Positions 10,715-31,183 of a stretch of DNA of 64,000 nucleotides are shown here, one piece after another; positions within the stretch are counted from its first letter, which is position 1, and the number at the start of each line of letters is the position of its first letter. The translations under genes and the position numbers were made by a program. The notes under the pieces were generated by a model. It was not told the DNA's origin and did no database searches. It was given only the letters and a program-made list of their open reading frames with translations. The stretch covers positions 62,001 through 126,000 of the forward strand of contig NZ_JAUSAR010000116.1 in assembly GCF_030652515.1 (NCBI RefSeq), read 5' to 3'. The stretch comes from Aquabacterium sp. (GTDB lineage: Bacteria > Pseudomonadota > Gammaproteobacteria > Burkholderiales > Burkholderiaceae_C).

Positions 10715-11752
<1,038 letters not shown>

Positions 11753-23292: not shown

Positions 23293-23520
23293 GTGAGCCG
23301 TGTCCCTTTGTTGCTGAATGCCAGTCGCTGTGTGGTGGCCTTCAGTTTGCTCGTCGGCATCAGTGCCTATGCTGCTGCATCGGGGGCGTCGGGCAAGACC
23401 AAGGATCCGGCGTCCAGCCCTGTTGCCACGGTGAGTGAGTCGCCCAGTTTTGCCTTGTTGGGCTTGGGCTTGGTCGCCATCGGATTGCATGGACTGGGCA
23501 GGTCTCGGCGCCATCGGTGA
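23293..23520 (+). CDS. Small exported protein with a PEP-CTERM-like C-terminal anchor
   Basis: From GTG 23293 the protein is 75 residues; a TTG at 23260 would add 11. It has a signal-peptide-like N-terminus (VAFSLLVGISAYAAASG) and a short Lys/Ser/Pro linker. The tail ESPSFALLGLGLVAIGL is followed by a basic end, GRSRRHR. The order motif, LALLGLGL-type helix and terminal Arg cluster is that of PEP-CTERM sorting signals, but the motif is degenerate (ESPS rather than PEPS). No exosortase gene is in the window. The role is unknown. It is oriented with the lipase gene downstream, 156 bp away. That gap holds no other supported gene. Confidence 0.5.
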   Translation: MSRVPLLLNASRCVVAFSLLVGISAYAAASGASGKTKDPASSPVATVSESPSFALLGLGLVAIGLHGLGRSRRHR

Positions 23521-23676
23521 CTGTGATTCTGGTAAACGCTGTTATCAGAAACCCGAGTTTGGACCACGGATGAGATTCCCATCCTGGTGTTGTGTGCATG
23601 ATGAACATCTGCGTTGCGGTGCACGTCCAGCCCGTGACTGCCCCCATGTTCAAACTCACAACGCCAGGAGACACCG

Positions 23677-24993
23677 ATGTCATTCCGTCCCACCACCAAA
23701 CACCTGTTGCTAACGGCAGTCCAGGCGGTAGTCGCCACGCTCATGGTGCCGAGCATGGCGAGCGCCGCCACCGATCCGTTCTACCAGTACACGGATGGCA
23801 CCCCGCTGGCGAGCTTTGCGCCTGGCACGGTGTTGAAGAGCCGCACGATCACGGCGTACATCGCGGGTTTCAAGACCTCGTACAAGGCCACGCAAATCGT
23901 GTATCGCTCAACCGATGCCAAGCAGCGGCCTACCGCGAACGTGACGACCATCTTCACGCCCGAATGCACCTCGTCCTGCCCGAACAAGAACAAGGTCATC
24001 TCTTACCAGTCTTTCTATGACTCGCTGAATCCGGAAGACGGGCCTTCGCGCGCCTACGCGGGCGGTAAGCGCCTGCCGGACCTGCTGCCGGCTGTCGAGA
24101 CGGTCCTGTTCGGCACGTATGTGAAGAACGGCTACACCGTCGTCATCTCCGACACCGAAGGTCAGAACGCCAATTTTGCCGCCGGCCCCGAATACGGCTA
24201 CAACACGCTGGACTCGATTCGCGCTGCGCTGAATTCGCCAGAGATCGGCCTCGACCGGAGCGCCAAGGTCGCGTTGCTGGGTTACTCGGGCGGCGCCATC
24301 GCCACCGAGTGGGCCGCCGAGCTGGCGCCCAGCTATGCACCCGACCTGAAGCCCAACCTGATCGGTGCGGCCTTCGGTGGCACGCTGGTGAGCCCCGAGC
24401 ACAACCTGACCTATGTTGAAGGCGCGCCCATTTGGGGCGGTGTGATGCCCATGGCCGTCGTCGGCGTCGCGCGTTCTTACGAGATCGACATCAAGAAGTA
24501 CCTCACCCCGCGCGGTCTCGAGGTCTACGACAGGATTCAGAAGGCCTCGATCGCCTATGTGCTCGGCCAATATGGCAAGGTGACCTGGAAGGACCTGGTC
24601 AAGCCAGAGTTCCAGGATCGCACCAAGATCCCTGAATACGTGGCTGCTGTGAACACGGTCATCATGGGCACCGGCGGCACCCCCGAGATCCCACTGCAAA
24701 TCGGTCAGGGCACCGGCGGCATCTGGGAAGGTACGAAGACATCGCCAATCTGGGGCAAGGGAGACGGCGTGATGCTGGCGGGCGATGTCCGCACGCTGGC
24801 GCGCCAGTACTGCGCTCAGGGTGTGGCGGTGGAGCACAAAGAGTATGGTTCAAGCCACTTCTTGACCATGCTCAACTGGCTGCCTGCGGCAACCGCCTGG
24901 ATCGATGACCGATTCGCTGGGAAACCTGCTCCGCAGAACTGCGCCAGCATCGCGCCGGGCAACTCGCTCGCTCCGCTCGTTTACAAGCCCTGA
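23677..24993 (+). CDS. Secreted lipase (LIP family, PF03583-like)
   Basis: The 438-residue alpha/beta-hydrolase has a signal peptide (about residues 1-31, cut after ASAA). The nucleophile elbow is GYSGG (S204), and a likely catalytic His is H394 in YGSSHFLTML; the acid residue may be D363 or nearby. The overall pattern matches secretory lipases of the PF03583 family: YQSFYDSLNPEDGPSRAYAGG, then VVISDTEGQNANFAAG, then GYNTLDSIRAAL. Paired Cys residues (C97/C101, C379/C422) suggest disulfides in the exported enzyme. AGGAGA lies 8 bp before the ATG. It probably hydrolyses triglycerides or other esters outside the cell. Confidence 0.85.
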   Translation: MSFRPTTKHLLLTAVQAVVATLMVPSMASAATDPFYQYTDGTPLASFAPGTVLKSRTITAYIAGFKTSYKATQIVYRSTDAKQRPTANVTTIFTPECTSSCPNKNKVISYQSFYDSLNPEDGPSRAYAGGKRLPDLLPAVETVLFGTYVKNGYTVVISDTEGQNANFAAGPEYGYNTLDSIRAALNSPEIGLDRSAKVALLGYSGGAIATEWAAELAPSYAPDLKPNLIGAAFGGTLVSPEHNLTYVEGAPIWGGVMPMAVVGVARSYEIDIKKYLTPRGLEVYDRIQKASIAYVLGQYGKVTWKDLVKPEFQDRTKIPEYVAAVNTVIMGTGGTPEIPLQIGQGTGGIWEGTKTSPIWGKGDGVMLAGDVRTLARQYCAQGVAVEHKEYGSSHFLTMLNWLPAATAWIDDRFAGKPAPQNCASIAPGNSLAPLVYKP

Positions 24994-25019
24994 GCGGGGG
25001 GGCGGTTTTTTACCAATAG

Positions 25020-25053
25020 AAAGGCCGCCAGGTGTATCTACTTGGCGGCCTTT
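25020..25053. terminator. Long perfect hairpin between the lipase gene and the element end; probable original tRNA-Gly terminator
   Basis: AAAGGCCGCCA (25020-25030) and TGGCGGCCTTT (25043-25053) form an 11-bp perfect stem around a 12-nt loop. Read on the minus strand it is followed by TTTCTATT. It lies 12 bp beyond the left att copy. In an uninterrupted chromosome it would therefore sit just 3' of the tRNA-Gly gene. It can also end lipase transcription on the plus strand. Confidence 0.7.
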
Positions 25054-25064
25054 AACTTATCTGT

Positions 25065-25081
25065 TGGAGCGGGTGATGGGA
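25065..25081. repeat. Left attachment site (17-bp repeat of the tRNA-Gly 3' end)
   Basis: The 17 bases match the last 17 bases of tRNA-Gly(CCC) at 31110-31126 exactly; the flanking base differs on each side. The site continues into CCCGCTCC, so that GGAGCGGG (25066-25073) and CCCGCTCC (25083-25090) form an inverted repeat across the junction. Confidence 0.88.
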
Positions 25082-25249
25082 GCCCGCTCCACTTCTAAGC
25101 CTCAGGGCAACGGTTATGGTTAGATCTACTTTGTAGCACATTGATGTAGATCCTAGTGTTGCCTTAGAACCGGTGGCCTGACCTGTATCCAGCTTCCTCT
25201 GGAATTCGACTATCATGGATTTGATAATCGTCATCTGAGGGAGATTTTT

Positions 25250-25720
25250 ATGAACTGGAAAAAGTTCGGATTTATTTTGCTGTTTGCTTCATTAGCCATC
25301 TCGGCTTATGGGATCTATTCAAATTTTCAGACCCAGGATCAAATAAGAACGGAAGTCGTTAAGGCTTTTAATAGGCAAGTGATGGAAGGGTTTTTAACTA
25401 CAATTCCAGTGCGTGCAGAACTTCGCGAGACGGCAAATATCGCAAAGATGTGCATGCTCATTGGCGGCTTCGGATCAATCATTGGAGTTGCATTTTTATA
25501 TTCTTCTAGTTCCTCTCGGAAGGAAGCAGTAGAAATAGAAAAATTGGACGAGATGAAGGAAAAAATTTGGCCGAAATCTGTAGAGCCTGATCTGGAAGCA
25601 GTTAAAAGAAAACGCAGTCAGAGTGGTCTATGTATACATTGCGGGGGAGCGCTGACATTATGGAAGCTTGCCTTGGGTCAACTGGCTCATCCGGAGTGTG
25701 AGAATGAAAAATCTATGTAA
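25250..25720 (+). CDS. Element protein with two membrane helices and a C-terminal zinc-knuckle-like motif
   Basis: The 156-residue protein is not recognised. It has a hydrophobic helix at about residues 7-24 and a second at 66-85. A charged coiled region (EAVEIEKLDEMKEKI) follows, and then a C-terminal C-x2-C-x15-H-x2-C pattern (C128, C131, H147, C150; LCIHCGG and AHPEC) that could bind zinc. GAGG precedes the ATG. It is the outermost gene at the left end and converges on the KAP NTPase with 9 bp between stops. Codon use is AT-rich like the rest of the element. The 25082-25249 stretch before it holds its presumed promoter and no gene. Confidence 0.7.
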   Translation: MNWKKFGFILLFASLAISAYGIYSNFQTQDQIRTEVVKAFNRQVMEGFLTTIPVRAELRETANIAKMCMLIGGFGSIIGVAFLYSSSSSRKEAVEIEKLDEMKEKIWPKSVEPDLEAVKRKRSQSGLCIHCGGALTLWKLALGQLAHPECENEKSM

Positions 25721-25729
25721 TCTTTCAGA

Positions 25730-27058
25730 TTAAACATTTAAATCAAATCGACTGAAGAGCCAAGACATATAAGTTTTTGGGTTCTTCCAGCGGCCTTGAC
25801 CGTTTACAAATTGATTTGCTTCATCGCTAAGTTGTGTTTGAAAATCACCAAGCCCGCAAGCATGAAGTGCAATGAAAATATCAAAAATCCACGGGTTGGC
25901 AACATTTCTGCTCTTTAAATGTTTTGCAAGTTGACCAGCTTCTTTATGAGCTTCAATTTCATGGTGACTTACTCTTCTGAAGAGGTCTGGATTGTGAATT
26001 TTTAATGCAATGGGCCAAGCTGCAACTACTTCCGATTGATTGAGTGGGTGGGCAAATGAATAGAGCGCAACCCCGTTTTCAACATCGCGAAGTGACATTT
26101 TCAAGAGTGTCGCAATTGATCCGAAATCGGATACAAAGTCCGATCGGCCACTTGGGCCTAAAAGCCTGTATCTACTAAGCGTAGCTTCACAATGTTTTTT
26201 ATTGTCGTCAGGGCTGTGCTCTTCAGCACCTAGTTTTTTTGGCAGGTTGAGTGAAAGCTGAACAAATTTTGCCAAATAGGCATTTGAATCAATCCTTGAG
26301 CCATAGATGCCCTCAACAGCAGCAGCAAGTTGCTTGCGATTCATTAAGAGAACAAAAACAATCCCAGGGACTTCAAAAAAATGTTTAATTCTTTCGACTG
26401 TTTTGACAGCAAAATCTGGTCGGCAGCGATCTAGTTCATCAAGAAAGATGATAACTGGCTCTTCCTTTTCTTTGGAAAATTCTTCTAAAGTATCTTTGAA
26501 GTTTTCGACTGTTTTTTTATCATCTTCGTAACTGCTAAGGCGCTTGCTAATCAAGTCTTCTAATTTGCTGGCCGCGTCGTTCTCTAAATCGCTAATAGCC
26601 TTTGCTAGGTCATCCGCCAAATCGGTTTTGCCAAGTAGCCAATGGCCTGCAGAATTCACTGCTATTTTGGCTGCGGTTGGTAATAGAGTCGCCCCTAGTT
26701 TTGTTCCGGTTTTTAATAAACTCCCAACGGTCTTGGATTTGTTAAGCTTGGTTAATTCTACTAGTTCCCCGGCAATCATTAGAAACGGATCTTCAACATA
26801 GTCGCGTTGGAAGCAGTCAATATAGATTGTTCTATATTTTTCATTTAGGAGTGACGCATGCCAATGTCGACCAAACCACGTTTTTCCTTCACCCCAAGGA
26901 GCATCAATAGCTATCACACCGCCATCAGGCAATCTCGTCAAAAAGCCAGTTAGGCGTTTTGCAAGTTCCGCTCTTTCAAAGGCATCCCCTTGAAATGGCA
27001 TATCGTCATGTTTAAAAGCTGGGGGGCGTAAAAAAAGTGGAATGATCGGAGTGTTCAT
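25730..27058 (-). CDS. KAP family P-loop NTPase
   Basis: The protein is 442 residues from ATG 27058 (MNTPIIPLFLRPP). Walker A is APWGEGKT (53-60). Walker B, with the KAP hallmark, is PVIIFLDELDRCRP (201-214). Between the two motifs lies a moderately hydrophobic, Gly/Ala-rich stretch (about 110-143), at the place where KAP proteins insert membrane segments. The C-terminal 200 residues are helical with no recognised domain. KAP NTPases are membrane-linked and many sit on mobile elements, with several implicated in phage exclusion; a defence role here is an inference. The frame stays open upstream to 27148, but that extension would overlap the recombinase gene. Confidence 0.82.
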   Translation of the reverse strand: MNTPIIPLFLRPPAFKHDDMPFQGDAFERAELAKRLTGFLTRLPDGGVIAIDAPWGEGKTWFGRHWHASLLNEKYRTIYIDCFQRDYVEDPFLMIAGELVELTKLNKSKTVGSLLKTGTKLGATLLPTAAKIAVNSAGHWLLGKTDLADDLAKAISDLENDAASKLEDLISKRLSSYEDDKKTVENFKDTLEEFSKEKEEPVIIFLDELDRCRPDFAVKTVERIKHFFEVPGIVFVLLMNRKQLAAAVEGIYGSRIDSNAYLAKFVQLSLNLPKKLGAEEHSPDDNKKHCEATLSRYRLLGPSGRSDFVSDFGSIATLLKMSLRDVENGVALYSFAHPLNQSEVVAAWPIALKIHNPDLFRRVSHHEIEAHKEAGQLAKHLKSRNVANPWIFDIFIALHACGLGDFQTQLSDEANQFVNGQGRWKNPKTYMSWLFSRFDLNV

Positions 27059-27102
27059 GATTAATTTTCGTTTAGCGGGGTTGTCGTTGCTGGTATACCG
27101 GG

Positions 27103-27768
27103 TTACGTGATTTTGTGAAAAATTCGCTGAATTTGCGAAATTCTCCATATACCACCTTTTGGCGTTGGCACGTTTAGATCATTTAGCTCTTTTGCCATAG
27201 CCCTTTGGGATAAACCTCTGGCATTCATCCCATTAAATAAAGGGCGCAGTTTATTTGCAAAAATGATAGCTTCTTGCCTTCGTTGCTCAATGTTGGGTCG
27301 CAGATTTTTAGGCCCGGCGCTTCCGAGTTGAACTCCCCGCGCCTTAGCAATAGCCAAGGCTTCCTTTGTTCGCTGGCTGATGCGCTTAGCCTCATGTTCA
27401 GCAAACGCAGCCATGATGTGAATGGTTAATTCGTTTGCTTCTGGCATATCGCATGCAATAAATCGCACTTGGCTTTCCATGAGCCCGGATACAAAGTGAA
27501 CATTGCGTGCCAACCTATCCAATTTTGCAATGATCAAAGTAGCGTTATTCTTTCGGCATGCATTTAAAGCGGCGCGAAGTTGGGGCCGTTTTGCCAATGG
27601 CTCCGCACCTTTTCCAGTTTCGACCTCCCTAAACTCTCCGGCTAGTTCTGCATTCCTTTGGGAAAGAAAACTAAAAACGGCGGCTTGCTGAGCTTCCAGT
27701 CCCAAGCCACTTTGGCCTTGCTTGGTTGTGCTAACTCGGTAGTAGGAGATGAACTTTTGCTTTGTCAT
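27103..27768 (-). CDS. Small serine recombinase (resolvase/invertase family)
   Basis: The protein is 221 residues from ATG 27768 (MTKQKFISYYRVST). The resolvase domain has the catalytic serine S13 in YYRVSTTKQGQSG and the Arg-rich active-site segment IIAKLDRLARN. It also has HIMAAFAEHEAKRISQRTKEAL, typical of the long helix E. The C-terminal part has a helix-turn-helix (GLSQRAMAKELNDLNVPTPKGG). It lacks the large C-terminal domains of phage serine integrases, so resolution of dimers or inversion of a segment within the element is more likely than integration. It lies upstream of the KAP gene on the same strand and is probably cotranscribed. Confidence 0.88.
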   Translation of the reverse strand: MTKQKFISYYRVSTTKQGQSGLGLEAQQAAVFSFLSQRNAELAGEFREVETGKGAEPLAKRPQLRAALNACRKNNATLIIAKLDRLARNVHFVSGLMESQVRFIACDMPEANELTIHIMAAFAEHEAKRISQRTKEALAIAKARGVQLGSAGPKNLRPNIEQRRQEAIIFANKLRPLFNGMNARGLSQRAMAKELNDLNVPTPKGGIWRISQIQRIFHKIT

Positions 27769-27771
27769 GGC

Positions 27772-27808
27772 TGACCACGTGACTAGAGGTTCGTTTAATG
27801 TGTGGTCA
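27772..27808. promoter_or_regulatory. Inverted repeat upstream of the serine recombinase
   Basis: TGACCAC (27772-27778) and GTGGTCA (27802-27808) form a 7-bp inverted repeat with 23 bp between arms. It lies just upstream of the recombinase start, in the 154-bp region shared with the divergent Rep-like gene. It could be an operator or part of a recombination (res) site. The evidence is only the symmetry and the position. Confidence 0.35.
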
Positions 27809-27922
27809 TTGTAGGATGACGGCGAGAAAAAATTCCGACAATTCTGCAAAACGCTTACTACACTGAGTCAAGGCGACGTTGGGTGTTCATCCCAATCAAG
27901 CAGTTAATTAGTAGGTGATATT

Positions 27923-28846
27923 TTGGAATACGGCGATTTAAAAATTATTGCGGCAATTGATTGGGTTGAGTTTGAAGTTTCGTTGGTGAACGCTTCGAAT
28001 CATCAGACTTTGTCCAGGGCTTTAAGAAGCTTCCAGGTTGCGGAAAAGGTGTGGGTTGAGCCGGTTGAGCCAACTAGTAAAAACAAGACCTCTAGGAAGT
28101 TTCGCTTTCGTCTTCATGATCCAAAGAGTTGTGCTGATAGTCAGATTATTCTCACTAAGCTCGGGTCGAGATTTGAGTTTTCAGATGAGCCTGAAATAAC
28201 AGCGGTGGAGGTTGCTGTTGATTTCTTTAGTCCTTCGCATGATGCGGAGCGATTGGTGGAGGCCACCATTTCTCTTTATACATATCATGCGAATCTCGTC
28301 AGTGAAAATCGCCGTGCTTCTGGCCGGGAAGCGACAACTGGGCAGGCAAAAGGGATCTTAGTTCGTAAAGATCTCCTAAATGCGGTTCACTCAGAATTGT
28401 CGCTGAACATTGGGAATGTCTCGGATGCGGTTCATCAAAGAATCTACTTGAAGAAGAAAAATAAGCAGTTGCATTTGCCCATAGCAGAACATCGGGCCAG
28501 GGTTGAGGTAACACTGCAGCATGAAAATTTGCCATTCACAACGATAGAGCAATGGTCAAAATTTCAATTTAGTAGTCTGGCAAATTACTTTAAATGGCGG
28601 AAAGACTCCGTATTAACTCCCTTGCAGCAGTGCTTGAGGTCTGTGCAAGCTAATGTAGGAACAGTTGAGATTGCCCAATTTGAACGTCTGGCGCGCCGAA
28701 CTACGTTGTCTTCTACCGTAGCCGATGGTCGCCTGAATGACCGGGTCTATGACGCATTGAGAAGCTTGACAACCAAGCAACGAAAGCCGGTAAAGCTACA
28801 AAAAAACCGGGTGAAAGCGCATGTGCCGCTTCTGCTAAGTGCTTGA
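27923..28846 (+). CDS. Element protein weakly resembling Rep_trans replication initiators
   Basis: The protein is 307 residues from TTG 27923, which follows a weak purine-rich site (TAGGTGAT). No other good start is seen. It is not confidently recognised, but three segments fall in the order seen in Rep_trans/phage replication initiators: IDWVEFEVSL near the N-terminus, EITAVEVAVDFF near residue 95, and YLKKKNKQ...RARVEVTLQ near residue 175-195. The C-terminus is very basic (KQRKPVKLQKNRVK), consistent with DNA binding. It is divergent from the serine recombinase. If it is a replication initiator, the element may have an excised replicating circular form. Confidence 0.5.
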   Translation: MEYGDLKIIAAIDWVEFEVSLVNASNHQTLSRALRSFQVAEKVWVEPVEPTSKNKTSRKFRFRLHDPKSCADSQIILTKLGSRFEFSDEPEITAVEVAVDFFSPSHDAERLVEATISLYTYHANLVSENRRASGREATTGQAKGILVRKDLLNAVHSELSLNIGNVSDAVHQRIYLKKKNKQLHLPIAEHRARVEVTLQHENLPFTTIEQWSKFQFSSLANYFKWRKDSVLTPLQQCLRSVQANVGTVEIAQFERLARRTTLSSTVADGRLNDRVYDALRSLTTKQRKPVKLQKNRVKAHVPLLLSA

Positions 28847-29144
28847 TTCTCAACAATGATTCACCAGATGTGCGCATTGGATGTAAATACTTAATACATT
28901 GAAAAGAACAAGACATGGTCAAGGGCTCTGCAGAGCATTGACTCTTAGAGGCAACCGAAGTCCTAGATTCGGAGACCCCACCCCCTGACCATCTTCGTTT
29001 CCTCTCCGGGCAGCTTTTCAAAGTCAGATCCTTAGATATGACTGTTCACTAAGGATCGCTTAACCGGCATCTTATTGTTTTATTTGAAATAGTGATTTTT
29101 TAAAAATCACCAATCCTTATAAATAAGCCCGATTTAATGCCGGT
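28847..29144. other. Non-coding stretch of the element with several inverted repeats
   Basis: No gene is supported here. Three symmetric pairs are present: AACCGGCAT (29062-29070) with ATGCCGGTT (29137-29145); AAGGAT (29051-29056) with ATCCTT (29113-29118); and a near-continuous palindrome GTGATTTTT/AAAAATCAC (29092-29110). The last is AT-rich and suited to a bidirectional terminator between the convergent Rep-like and integrase genes. The interlocked order of the others is unusual and could mark an origin or a recombination site. Confidence 0.5.
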
Positions 29145-31024
29145 TTAGAGTTTTTTTAGGTGATGAGGCCGGCTAGATTTTCTTCTTGTTGCATCTTCAA
29201 GTGCCTTGATTCCGGCTTCTATGTCAAATGAAATAATCGTTGGCAGCTTAAAATCAAGTTGCGAGATTATTTTCAATAAATGATCTGGAAGGTGGTCGCT
29301 TGCATAGGTCCGACCAGATGTCGTTTGTCCGCGCTCATGACCGGTAAGTTGATTTGAAATCGATTCTTCGATGCCCAGTTCTCTTTGGCAAAAGTTAATA
29401 AATGTGTGCCGAAATGAATGGAAGACCTTTTTGCCATCCCTCGGCCAGCCAAATTTATTGCCAAGCAGGCGATCATTGAACCACTTAATTGGAGCTTTTG
29501 TGTAACCCTTGTTCGGGTCGTATGAGAACTCCGGGAAGAGTCTTTCATGCCCCTTGGCAATTAATTTGACTTGCCACTTTATTAAACCTAGCTCAATTAA
29601 GGAAGGGTGAACCGGAATCTTTCGAATTGCATTTGTGTTTTTGAGCTTCTGATCGTCGTTTTCCTGATTGATCGAAATATACCAAGAGCCTTTGTCCGTT
29701 TTTTTATGTCGCTCAAATGAAGTTGACAGAGTTCTCCAATTCTTGCTCCAGTGAACAAGCCTAGCAACGGTAGCCAGTAATAGTGGGGCTGAAATTCCCT
29801 AAAGGTGTTCGCCTTAGATAGTTCGCCTCTTCCGGTTTGATACCATTCCTCGCCAAATATCTGGGTTAGTTCGTCATGCGTAAAATGATCTCGTTGATCC
29901 TGCTCCCGGCCTTGCTTTTTTTTGGTGGCAACATCGAAAGCTAGATTTTCTGCCGGATCGAAGTCAATCCAATTTTGATTTTTTGCCCAACGGAAAAGGG
30001 AACTTAAATTATTTAATCGCTTTTGAATTTCTTGTTCCGAAATTCTTGGCCACTCTTCCGGGATGTTCATTCCGTGCTTCAAAAGAGCTTTGGTTTTGTC
30101 TGCCGGTTCAGCTTTGAGCTTTGGCACGTAATGGGATAGACGTTCTCGATCAACATCCCCGAGCTTGGGGTCAGACTCTGCATCTATGAAGTGCTGGCAA
30201 GCGGCTCTAATGCGCCTTGCTTGGTCACTGGCTACCTTCCCGCCTTTGATCGCCATAAAGGCGTTTAGAACCTCTGACATGCGTTTTTGACCTTTGCCCC
30301 GACTCGGATTGATAGCAGGCCGCTCGCGAGAAAGTTCCAACTGCTCAGGCGTCATCCTGGCTTTGATGACAACGCGTAGTGCCTCCACGCCGGATGCTTC
30401 GAATTCGATTGAGTCCTTTGTGATCTTCTGTGCCTGCTCAGGCGCAAAGCCTTCCTTTGAATTCCCCAGGACACTGAAAAGCACCGCCTCACATGATCCA
30501 GAGCCCAGCAGAGCCGCTGCGACTTCGCGGGCACCCCTGACCCCTAAGACGCCGCAAAAATCGGCCTGGCGGGCGCCTGATGGCATTTGACTAGAGAGGG
30601 GAACGACATAGCCGCCCTCTGGTTGTTCAACTTCCATTGCAGTAAACGGCACGAAATGGCCAGGCATGGCGGCAGTCCTAACAAACAAACTAAGGGCACC
30701 TTTCTCGACCTCCCTTAGCAAGTGCTCTTCATCAATTCCTGATGTTGCCGTCGCATCAGCGAGCCTCATGTATCCCTGCCCGACAAGCATTGGCGAGCCG
30801 ATAGCAATCTGTTCGAAGTTCATGGTTTGTTCAAGTCGAAGGAAGCGCTCACGCCAGTGTGCAAGTTGGGCGCTGGCGATGGCCTTGGCAACAGCGGGTG
30901 TGCGGCTTCCGGTTGATAGGTGCAACTCGCCCTTACCAACTGCTTGCCGAAGACGCACCGGCACAACAAGTCGCACAGCGTAGATGCCGCTGCGTCGTCT
31001 ATAGAGATTGGAATTTTGGGCCAC
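29145..31024 (-). CDS. Tyrosine integrase of the element, read in two frames joined at an A7 heptamer
   Basis: From GTG 31024 the first frame codes a DUF6538-like N-terminus (NLYRRRSGIYAVRLVVP), an arm/core-binding region and the start of the catalytic domain, with R428 in TGARIGELCQLH. That frame then ends at 29597 (475 residues). At 29699-29705 the codons ATA AAA AAA contain A_AAA_AAA. A -1 shift there continues as TDKGSWYISIN and stays open to TAA at 29145, giving 626 residues. The shifted part supplies HSFRH (H536, R539), TGHE (H563) and RTYAS (Y574). Without it the protein has no nucleophile. Whether this is programmed frameshifting, a one-base deletion or a read error cannot be told here. 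The gene is codirectional with and 86 bp below tRNA-Gly. Confidence 0.85.
29699..29705 (-). other. Slippery heptamer A_AAA_AAA in the integrase gene
   Basis: Seven consecutive A residues (minus strand) are phased as A_AAA_AAA followed by CGG. This is a canonical -1 slippage sequence of the kind used by many insertion-sequence transposases. No strong downstream stem is obvious by eye, and no Shine-Dalgarno-like stimulator is obvious just upstream. Confidence 0.6.
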
Positions 31025-31100
31025 TTTAGCACTCGCTTATGTAGGAGTGCCCTGTAGCAGAGAGTTGGAAGTGCTAAAAATCGTTATAGATCAAGCACTT
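31025..31100. promoter_or_regulatory. Repeated AGCACT boxes between the tRNA and the integrase
   Basis: AGCACT occurs at 31028-31033 and 31094-31099, and its complement AGTGCT at 31070-31075. The first and third form the 9-bp inverted repeat TTTAGCACT (31025-31033)/AGTGCTAAA (31070-31078). A further pair is GCACTC (31029-31034)/GAGTGC (31045-31050). Clustered repeats beside an att core fit integrase arm-type binding sites or an operator for int. Function is inferred from the pattern only. Confidence 0.4.
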
Positions 31101-31109
31101 GCGCAGGTG

Positions 31110-31126
31110 TGGAGCGGGTGATGGGA
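31110..31126. repeat. Right attachment site within the tRNA-Gly 3' end
   Basis: This is the second copy of the 17-bp repeat, and it forms the last 17 bases of the intact tRNA (T-arm 3' side, acceptor strand and CCA). Integration has thus preserved a complete tRNA gene at this end. Confidence 0.88.
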
Positions 31127-31183
31127 ATCGAACCCACGTTATTTGCTTGGGAAGCAAGAGTCCTACCATTGAACGACACCCGC
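31110..31183 (-). tRNA. tRNA-Gly(CCC)
   Basis: The 74-nt gene includes an encoded CCA. The acceptor stem is GCGGGTG/CACCCGC and the D arm is GTTC/GGAC with loop AATGGTA. The anticodon loop is TTCCCAA (anticodon CCC). The T arm is GTGGG/CCCAT with loop TTCGATT. The first anticodon-stem pair is a C-A mismatch, while the rest pairs. Its 3' end is the integration target of the element, and its natural terminator appears to have been displaced to 25020-25053. Confidence 0.93.

Follow-up and report, generated by a model that had tools for sequence, protein, structure and literature searches.

An island in the 3′ end of a tRNA gene

The 64,000-nucleotide stretch of Aquabacterium sp. DNA analysed here (hereafter the window) carries a genomic island of about 6.05 kb that is integrated in the 3′ end of a tRNA-Gly(CCC) gene (31110–31183, minus strand). 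The island is bounded by exact 17-bp direct repeats at 25065–25081 (distal) and 31110–31126 (proximal), the latter being the 3′ end of the tRNA gene, CCA included; we estimate that such a match would be expected by chance about 0.0004 times in 64 kb. The G+C content is 0.41–0.47 over most of the element and 0.54 near its integrase, against 0.58–0.70 in the profiled flanks.

Empty sites in two congeneric genomes confirm the boundary between host and element. In one (L041, genome G436) the match to the left flank ends at 11726 and the match to the right flank starts at 11710, and in the other (L044, genome G414) these positions are 12847 and 12831; the overlap is exactly 17 bp in both. Two further relatives (L042 and L043) keep the tRNA gene and the right flank and lack the element, and are less clean empty sites because a lipase-gene stretch on the left is missing. 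An original prediction, made from the letters alone, had described an AT-rich element integrated in tRNA-Gly between perfect 17-bp repeats and had looked to related strains for the empty site; the repeats, the tRNA 3′ end, the G+C profile and the two clean empty sites, with the repeat at the edge of the variable segment, all agree with it. The secretory-lipase stretch (23513–25064) left of the element has a match in L041 and L044 but none at the corresponding position of L042 and L043, and is thus another variable segment next to this tRNA gene.

The distal repeat opens a symmetric 27-bp segment (25065–25091) that reads as a 9-bp arm, a 9-bp spacer and an inverted 9-bp arm. Arm–spacer–inverted-arm cores are the layout used by tyrosine recombinases, and the segment looks like a pair of such core sites with one arm contributed by the element. 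The symmetry was not seen in L081, a relative at the same tRNA.

Read from the integrase end, the island encodes a DUF6538 tyrosine integrase (29145–31024, minus strand), a Rep-like protein (Rep; 27923–28846, plus strand), a small serine recombinase of resolvase/invertase size (27103–27768, minus strand; PF00239, E = 1.9e-24), a KAP-family P-loop NTPase (25730–27148, minus strand; PF07693, E = 1.9e-30) and a small membrane protein whose C-terminal part is rich in Cys (25250–25720, plus strand). These are the five genes originally called, with one correction: the integrase, the only tyrosine integrase in the element, is open from 31024 to 29597, where its frame stops inside the catalytic domain. 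The rest continues on that strand in a different frame, to about 29145 (an end read by eye), and holds what appears by eye to be the HxxR...Y box. The eight integrases scanned from intact relatives all match both DUF6538 and Phage_integrase. Given the broken frame, this copy of the element may be stuck, perhaps unable to excise alone; a sequencing error could be the cause, because the host genome is a draft assembly of 229 contigs with 8.99% contamination.

For the small membrane protein, searches of Pfam, PHROGs, PADLOC and NCBIfam gave no match that passed the threshold, and no relative was found on plasmids. Ten smaller open reading frames (ORFs) of the element matched no Pfam family above cut-off in a scan of ORFs of at least 60 aa. 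Among the five main proteins (Pfam and PHROGs) and these ten ORFs (Pfam), we found no AlpA, primase, capsid-redirecting or packaging (terminase) gene, the marks of PICMI, P4 and PICI satellites. At the DNA level, the whole element matched almost nothing in plasmids and phages except the tRNA itself and a 103-bp piece of a KAP gene.

Rep resembles Rep_trans-type nickases

Rep was classified by its predicted fold and invariant residues. Against PF02486 it scored 16.8 bits (E = 0.0052), below the gathering score of 29.6; it matched no PHROG and, by profile search, no sequence in the PDB, and its E. coli relative had no Pfam match. An AF2 model built on an alignment of ten sequences (mean pLDDT 82.1, pTM 0.80) returned chains of 4cwc and 4cij (RepDE and RepSTK1, both Rep_trans structures) at Foldseek ranks 1–5, with E values of 1.1e-7 to 4.4e-6, and the next matches were TBP chains at 6.7e-5 and above. 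In the same vein, D13, E96, D100, Y175, K177, R193 and E195 are invariant in all ten rows of the Rep alignment A2. The Rep_trans active site, as set out in the available text of PMC4797284, comprises three acidic metal ligands, a nucleophilic Tyr and a Lys two residues on, and on our reading the seven residues pair with D46, D142, D146, Y191, K193, R212 and E214 of that account, E96 standing where the family has D.

Together, fold and residues support Rep as a Rep_trans-type nickase, that is, a rolling-circle initiator and/or a MOBT-like relaxase. Initiator and relaxase are indistinguishable for Rep because the Rep_trans and MOBT families share the same motifs (PMC6499999, available text). For this reason the prediction that the element has no conjugation, capsid or relaxase gene stands for conjugation and capsid genes, and the absence of a relaxase cannot be claimed. 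MOBT relaxases are defined there by an N-terminal helix–turn–helix (HTH) plus PF02486; filing Rep under that name was rejected, because it has no N-terminal HTH, the first strand of its model beginning at residue 7.

Relatives of Rep were found by alignment search, single-sequence scans being insufficient: these yielded no relative in the genome contigs or viral contigs, and tblastn none in 50,697 phage records. Plasmids hold relatives in 27 records, at about 26% identity. On IncHI1B, MOBH plasmids of Salmonella and E. coli (L005 and L006), such a relative, with 26% identity, lies between IS1 copies and mob genes, and L006 has a serine recombinase too.

The non-coding region downstream of rep (28847–29144) is perhaps the origin. 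It contains stem-loops within 28990–29130 (z = −2.78; matched in folding by 3 of 200 shuffles), and a matching region is kept for about 290 bp in seven enterobacterial relatives. An expectation-maximization motif search 3′ of 17 rep genes gave scores of 52, 79 and 91, compared with 44–48, 59–67 and 80–88 for shuffles that had fewer starts. With scores only somewhat above those of the shuffles and no coherent site, we claim no origin motif.

The integrase and Rep recur together

With Rep as bait we gathered 30 loci, 29 of them distinct (L010 is L075), and set them beside 20 control loci chosen at tRNA-Gly genes in genomes of the genus. A serine recombinase was present in 19/30 Rep loci, a tyrosine integrase in 19/30 and both in 16/30 (15 distinct). 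The controls contained no Rep and no serine recombinase (0/20 each) and integrase-like ORFs in 4/20, which reflect profile drift (XerC/D-size proteins in three loci and a fragment in the fourth). Where both partners were present, the serine recombinase was divergent from rep in all but one (L079) of the 15 distinct loci; the E. coli locus L104 is a further exception. Members adjoin tmRNA (L075, L080), tRNA-Met (L076), tRNA-Leu (L077), tRNA-Thr (L078) and tRNA-Gly(CCC) (L081), and eight of ten loci tested have exact direct repeats 5486–13416 bp apart; none were found in the other two (L076, L084).

The converse search, with the integrase as bait, found ten other genomes among 398 at E ≤ 1e-30, with integrases 33–39% identical to that of the window. 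Nine of these loci were inspected: seven adjoin tRNA-Gly(CCC) and two tRNA-Arg(CCG). Rep lies within the stretch in 4/9 (once as a fragment) and about 32 kb away in a fifth (G459), and a serine recombinase is present in 3/9. Five genomes were shared between the Rep and integrase searches against 0.28 expected (P = 1.4e-6, the two samples being taken as the same genomes). The integrase–Rep link is therefore strong, and the serine recombinase is a common but optional partner.

Counting the host genome each time, Rep was detected in 12/399 genomes of the host's family, several with weak matches, in 2/42 of the genus and, at E ≤ 1e-8, in 2/369 across the class, so relatives are thinly spread beyond the host's own family. 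Relatives occur in Betaproteobacteria, Enterobacteriaceae and E. coli, and no other copy was found in the host genome. The window serine recombinase is 53–57% identical to those of L101, L078, L099 and L076 and 23–38% identical to eight others. The window and L081 integrases use the same tRNA and are not sisters in the tree; a rule that the same site means the same clade thus fails for this pair, and holds for the Leu and Thr groups.

These comparisons changed two parts of the original prediction. It had looked to the same five-gene order in other Burkholderiales, and that order is not conserved; what recurs is the tyrosine integrase with a Rep_trans protein, in many cases joined by a small serine recombinase. 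Its suggestion of an undescribed family of minimal elements holds in that the family is recurrent and its gene set was not found named in the literature searched, and 'minimal' fits one end of the size range only, because the repeat copies lie 5.5–13.4 kb apart. The host falls in the same genus as an Aquabacterium MAG, in line with the prediction's choice of Burkholderiales.

Three further observations concern the surroundings of these genes. On contig C14 of G459 (L089/L140, about 132–166 kb), Rep and a tRNA-Gly-linked integrase stand some 32 kb apart. The parts read there hold Zorya genes and genes resembling type I restriction–modification and KAP, and the locus may be a far larger version of the island. 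At L111 (3253–6687) and L113 (3925–6106), Rep plus serine recombinase, or integrase plus serine recombinase, lie beside genes that look P2-like by eye, and these modules may sit inside prophages. Accessory proteins of L101 (3753–4250) and L081 (6163–6741) match phrog_20749 and phrog_6823, both of unknown function, so relatives had already been counted as phage proteins.

Transfer between genera and exchange of modules

Rep relatives with at least 89% identity along the full gene were found in 27 of 5,426 complete E. coli genomes, and five more had short, weak matches. We inspected ten loci among these 32 genomes, some of them near copies of one another and one with a pseudogene for an integrase; all ten show an HTH gene, serine recombinase, rep, NIPSNAP and integrase. 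By annotation, tRNA-Leu adjoins three and tRNA-Thr one, and paoD lies on the far side in four. Cargo varies at fixed slots, with a reverse transcriptase in 6/10, an AAA ATPase in 4/10 and TIGR04141 in 5/10.

The element of L078 (Phytobacter) is 94.6% identical to that of E. coli L099 over 13,471 columns, whereas the adjacent proAB region is 78.0% identical between Phytobacter and E. coli L104, which shows, by sequence, a recent transfer between genera. Single genes tell a different story within islands: L077 and L099 are 95% identical in Rep and 45% in integrase, and the serine recombinase of L077 is 98% identical to that of L105 and 25% to that of L101. Such mosaics indicate, at the level of sequence, that modules are exchanged between islands.

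Cargo

The window KAP protein matched PADLOC models for PDC-S20 (1.1e-80), PifA (8e-16) and QatA (1e-11), where we take PDC to mean phage defence candidate. It is a probable anti-phage cargo gene, judged by its family. It and the small membrane protein are passengers of the island and probably both act against phages; among the loci inspected for the family, these two genes were seen only in the window element. A second KAP NTPase gene, 42% identical, is present elsewhere in the host genome (G000:C212:53429–54178). Relatives carry other cargo, including a retron RT-TIR_XII in L099 (PADLOC, E = 2e-181), PDC-S06 in L099 and L101, and PrrC-like AAA_13 proteins. Among the related integrase loci, L133 has a type I restriction–modification system plus a weak Rep, and L140 has Zorya, which may belong to one element with the distant Rep.

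A model for the group and its alternatives

The window element pairs a DUF6538 tyrosine integrase at a tRNA gene with a Rep_trans protein, the combination by which we define the group (at tRNA or tmRNA genes). We think it probable that the element belongs to a recurrent, loose group of islands in Beta- and Gammaproteobacteria that share this pair, often with a serine recombinase, and carry interchangeable cargo, much of it anti-phage, and that would be excised by the integrase, replicated by the Rep_trans protein and moved by helpers. The insertion site, repeats and empty sites were observed; the integrase would recombine the 17-bp copies, releasing a circle and restoring the tRNA gene. Rep, whose enzyme type is supported, would nick an origin, perhaps in the region downstream of its gene, and start rolling-circle copying, and the serine recombinase might resolve multimers or act in a second recombination. 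Transfer would need some helper, because the element has no conjugation or capsid gene, and in a relative the outcome of transfer can be seen in sequence. VirB4-family (PF03135) and Zot searches had no match in the host genome, so no present helper of those kinds was found there.

Several points weigh against this reading. The integrase of the window copy is broken, and excision, replication and transfer of this element are steps that we infer from sequence. Rep lies under the Pfam cut-off with neither a PHROG match nor a PDB sequence match, the Foldseek TM-scores of its model are low (0.36–0.44), and D13 and Y175 are only nearly invariant when more distant members are added to the alignment (A3). 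Several Rep matches, such as that in G450 (E ~ 1e-5), are weak; 14/30 Rep loci are without one or both partners, some of them at contig ends, and 4/9 integrase-bait loci are without a detected Rep and 6/9 without a serine recombinase. Finally, the regions downstream of the 17 rep genes gave no coherent origin motif common to the lineages.

The broken frame, interrupted within the catalytic domain, and the failure to find a second Rep copy in the genome also suit a relic, once mobile and now fixed in this strain. The other four genes are open and the repeats and tRNA are intact, and the break could be an error of the draft, contaminated assembly; we put this reading just short of an even chance. 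The shared motifs of Rep_trans and MOBT proteins (PMC6499999) suggest another role for the island, as an integrative mobilizable element (IME) in which Rep is chiefly a relaxase nicking an origin of transfer (oriT) and a resident conjugative system exports one strand. One protein can serve as both initiator and relaxase, and streptococcal MobT IMEs in tRNA genes look similar to it (both from available text of PMC5704250); a Rep relative also lies near mob genes on MOBH plasmids. Rep, however, is missing the MOBT-linked N-terminal HTH, no oriT was identified, the host genome has no PF03135 match and known MOBT systems are mostly from Firmicutes in the part of PMC6499999 available, and we consider such an element rather doubtful as the answer.

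A phage satellite, whose circle or single strand is packaged by a filamentous or tailed helper phage, seems unlikely. It draws on the Rep_trans membership of the CTXphi initiator (PMC4797284, in part), on the naming of two of the best BFVD fold matches of Rep as Inoviridae proteins, on the binning as viral of L098, a relative with all three genes, and on the frequency of defence cargo in satellites (PMC10803314, in part). Serine recombinases 60–66% identical to the window one also occur in apparent tailed-phage IMG/VR contigs (L109, L110, L112, L114), some beside genes that by eye look terminase-like. Set against these, the island yielded no capsid, terminase, AlpA or primase gene, the host genome no Zot-family gene and the phage records no tblastn match to Rep. 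Very improbable, in our judgement, is a single capture of a small rolling-circle plasmid by an unrelated tRNA integrase, with accidental gene neighbours: Rep relatives do occur on plasmids and partners differ between loci, but the integrase and Rep turn up together whichever of the two serves as bait, and all ten E. coli loci inspected share one backbone.

On its own, the window element is a modest find, one possibly disabled member of the proposed group. The means by which small defence islands move when they have neither phage nor conjugation genes is described as open in the available text of PMC10121019 and PMC11389934. A Rep_trans nickase repeatedly placed beside an island integrase would offer a concrete route, through excision, rolling-circle copying and single-strand export or packaging, and Rep with the DUF6538 integrase gives a search handle for more islands and new defence genes. 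More speculatively, and with considerable doubt, the group could represent a widespread class of proteobacterial defence-carrying integrative elements with a Rep_trans initiator, which excise, multiply as rolling circles (so raising defence-gene dosage) and move in single-stranded form with the help of conjugative systems or filamentous phages. Such a class, if real, would account for some of the 'integrase-only' defence islands, whose mode of movement is open.

Comparison with known systems

The gene combination is named nowhere in the literature searched, a scope that leaves out most subscription papers, and 'DUF6538' occurs in no paper there. Two identities were rejected: PICMI or P4, because neither AlpA nor primase was found, and GInt (Tn6571 type), which is described in PMC10121019 (in part) as having three integrases and a small HTH protein, because the element has one tyrosine integrase. 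PICMI satellites do resemble it, being islands of about 6 kb that combine an integrase and a replication gene with defence genes; their core, in the available text of PMC10803314, is int, alpA and prim next to fis in Vibrionaceae, and the window element showed no alpA, prim or fis. Islands at tmRNA genes that are transduced by a jumbo phage (PMC12595487) share the tmRNA/tRNA site, direct repeats, tyrosine integrase and defence genes, but their core is intY plus alpA, and 'replication initiat', 'resolvase' and 'serine recombinase' are absent from the text. Plasmids of the pT181 type and Rep_trans filamentous phages use the same type of replication protein; they are free plasmids or phages, whereas Rep here is tied to a chromosomal integrase.

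The E. coli 'integrase-only' defence islands (Hochhauser et al. 2023, PMC10121019) likewise occupy tRNA sites and combine an integrase or recombinase with defence genes without recognised mobility genes, and our E. coli relatives fit that description. The comparison is by description only; in the text available, no replication initiator is pointed out and the word 'replication' does not appear. Streptococcal MobT/Rep_trans IMEs such as IME_Sag2603_tRNAlys (PMC5704250, in part) are small and tRNA-integrated, have no mating apparatus of their own, and encode a tyrosine integrase together with a nickase of the Rep_trans family. Unlike them, the group described here is found in Proteobacteria, has no N-terminal HTH in Rep, uses a DUF6538 integrase, often with a serine recombinase, and carries defence-type cargo, with no helper known. 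The streptococcal MobT IMEs are thus its closest counterpart in kind, and the 'integrase-only' defence islands of E. coli its closest counterpart in setting.

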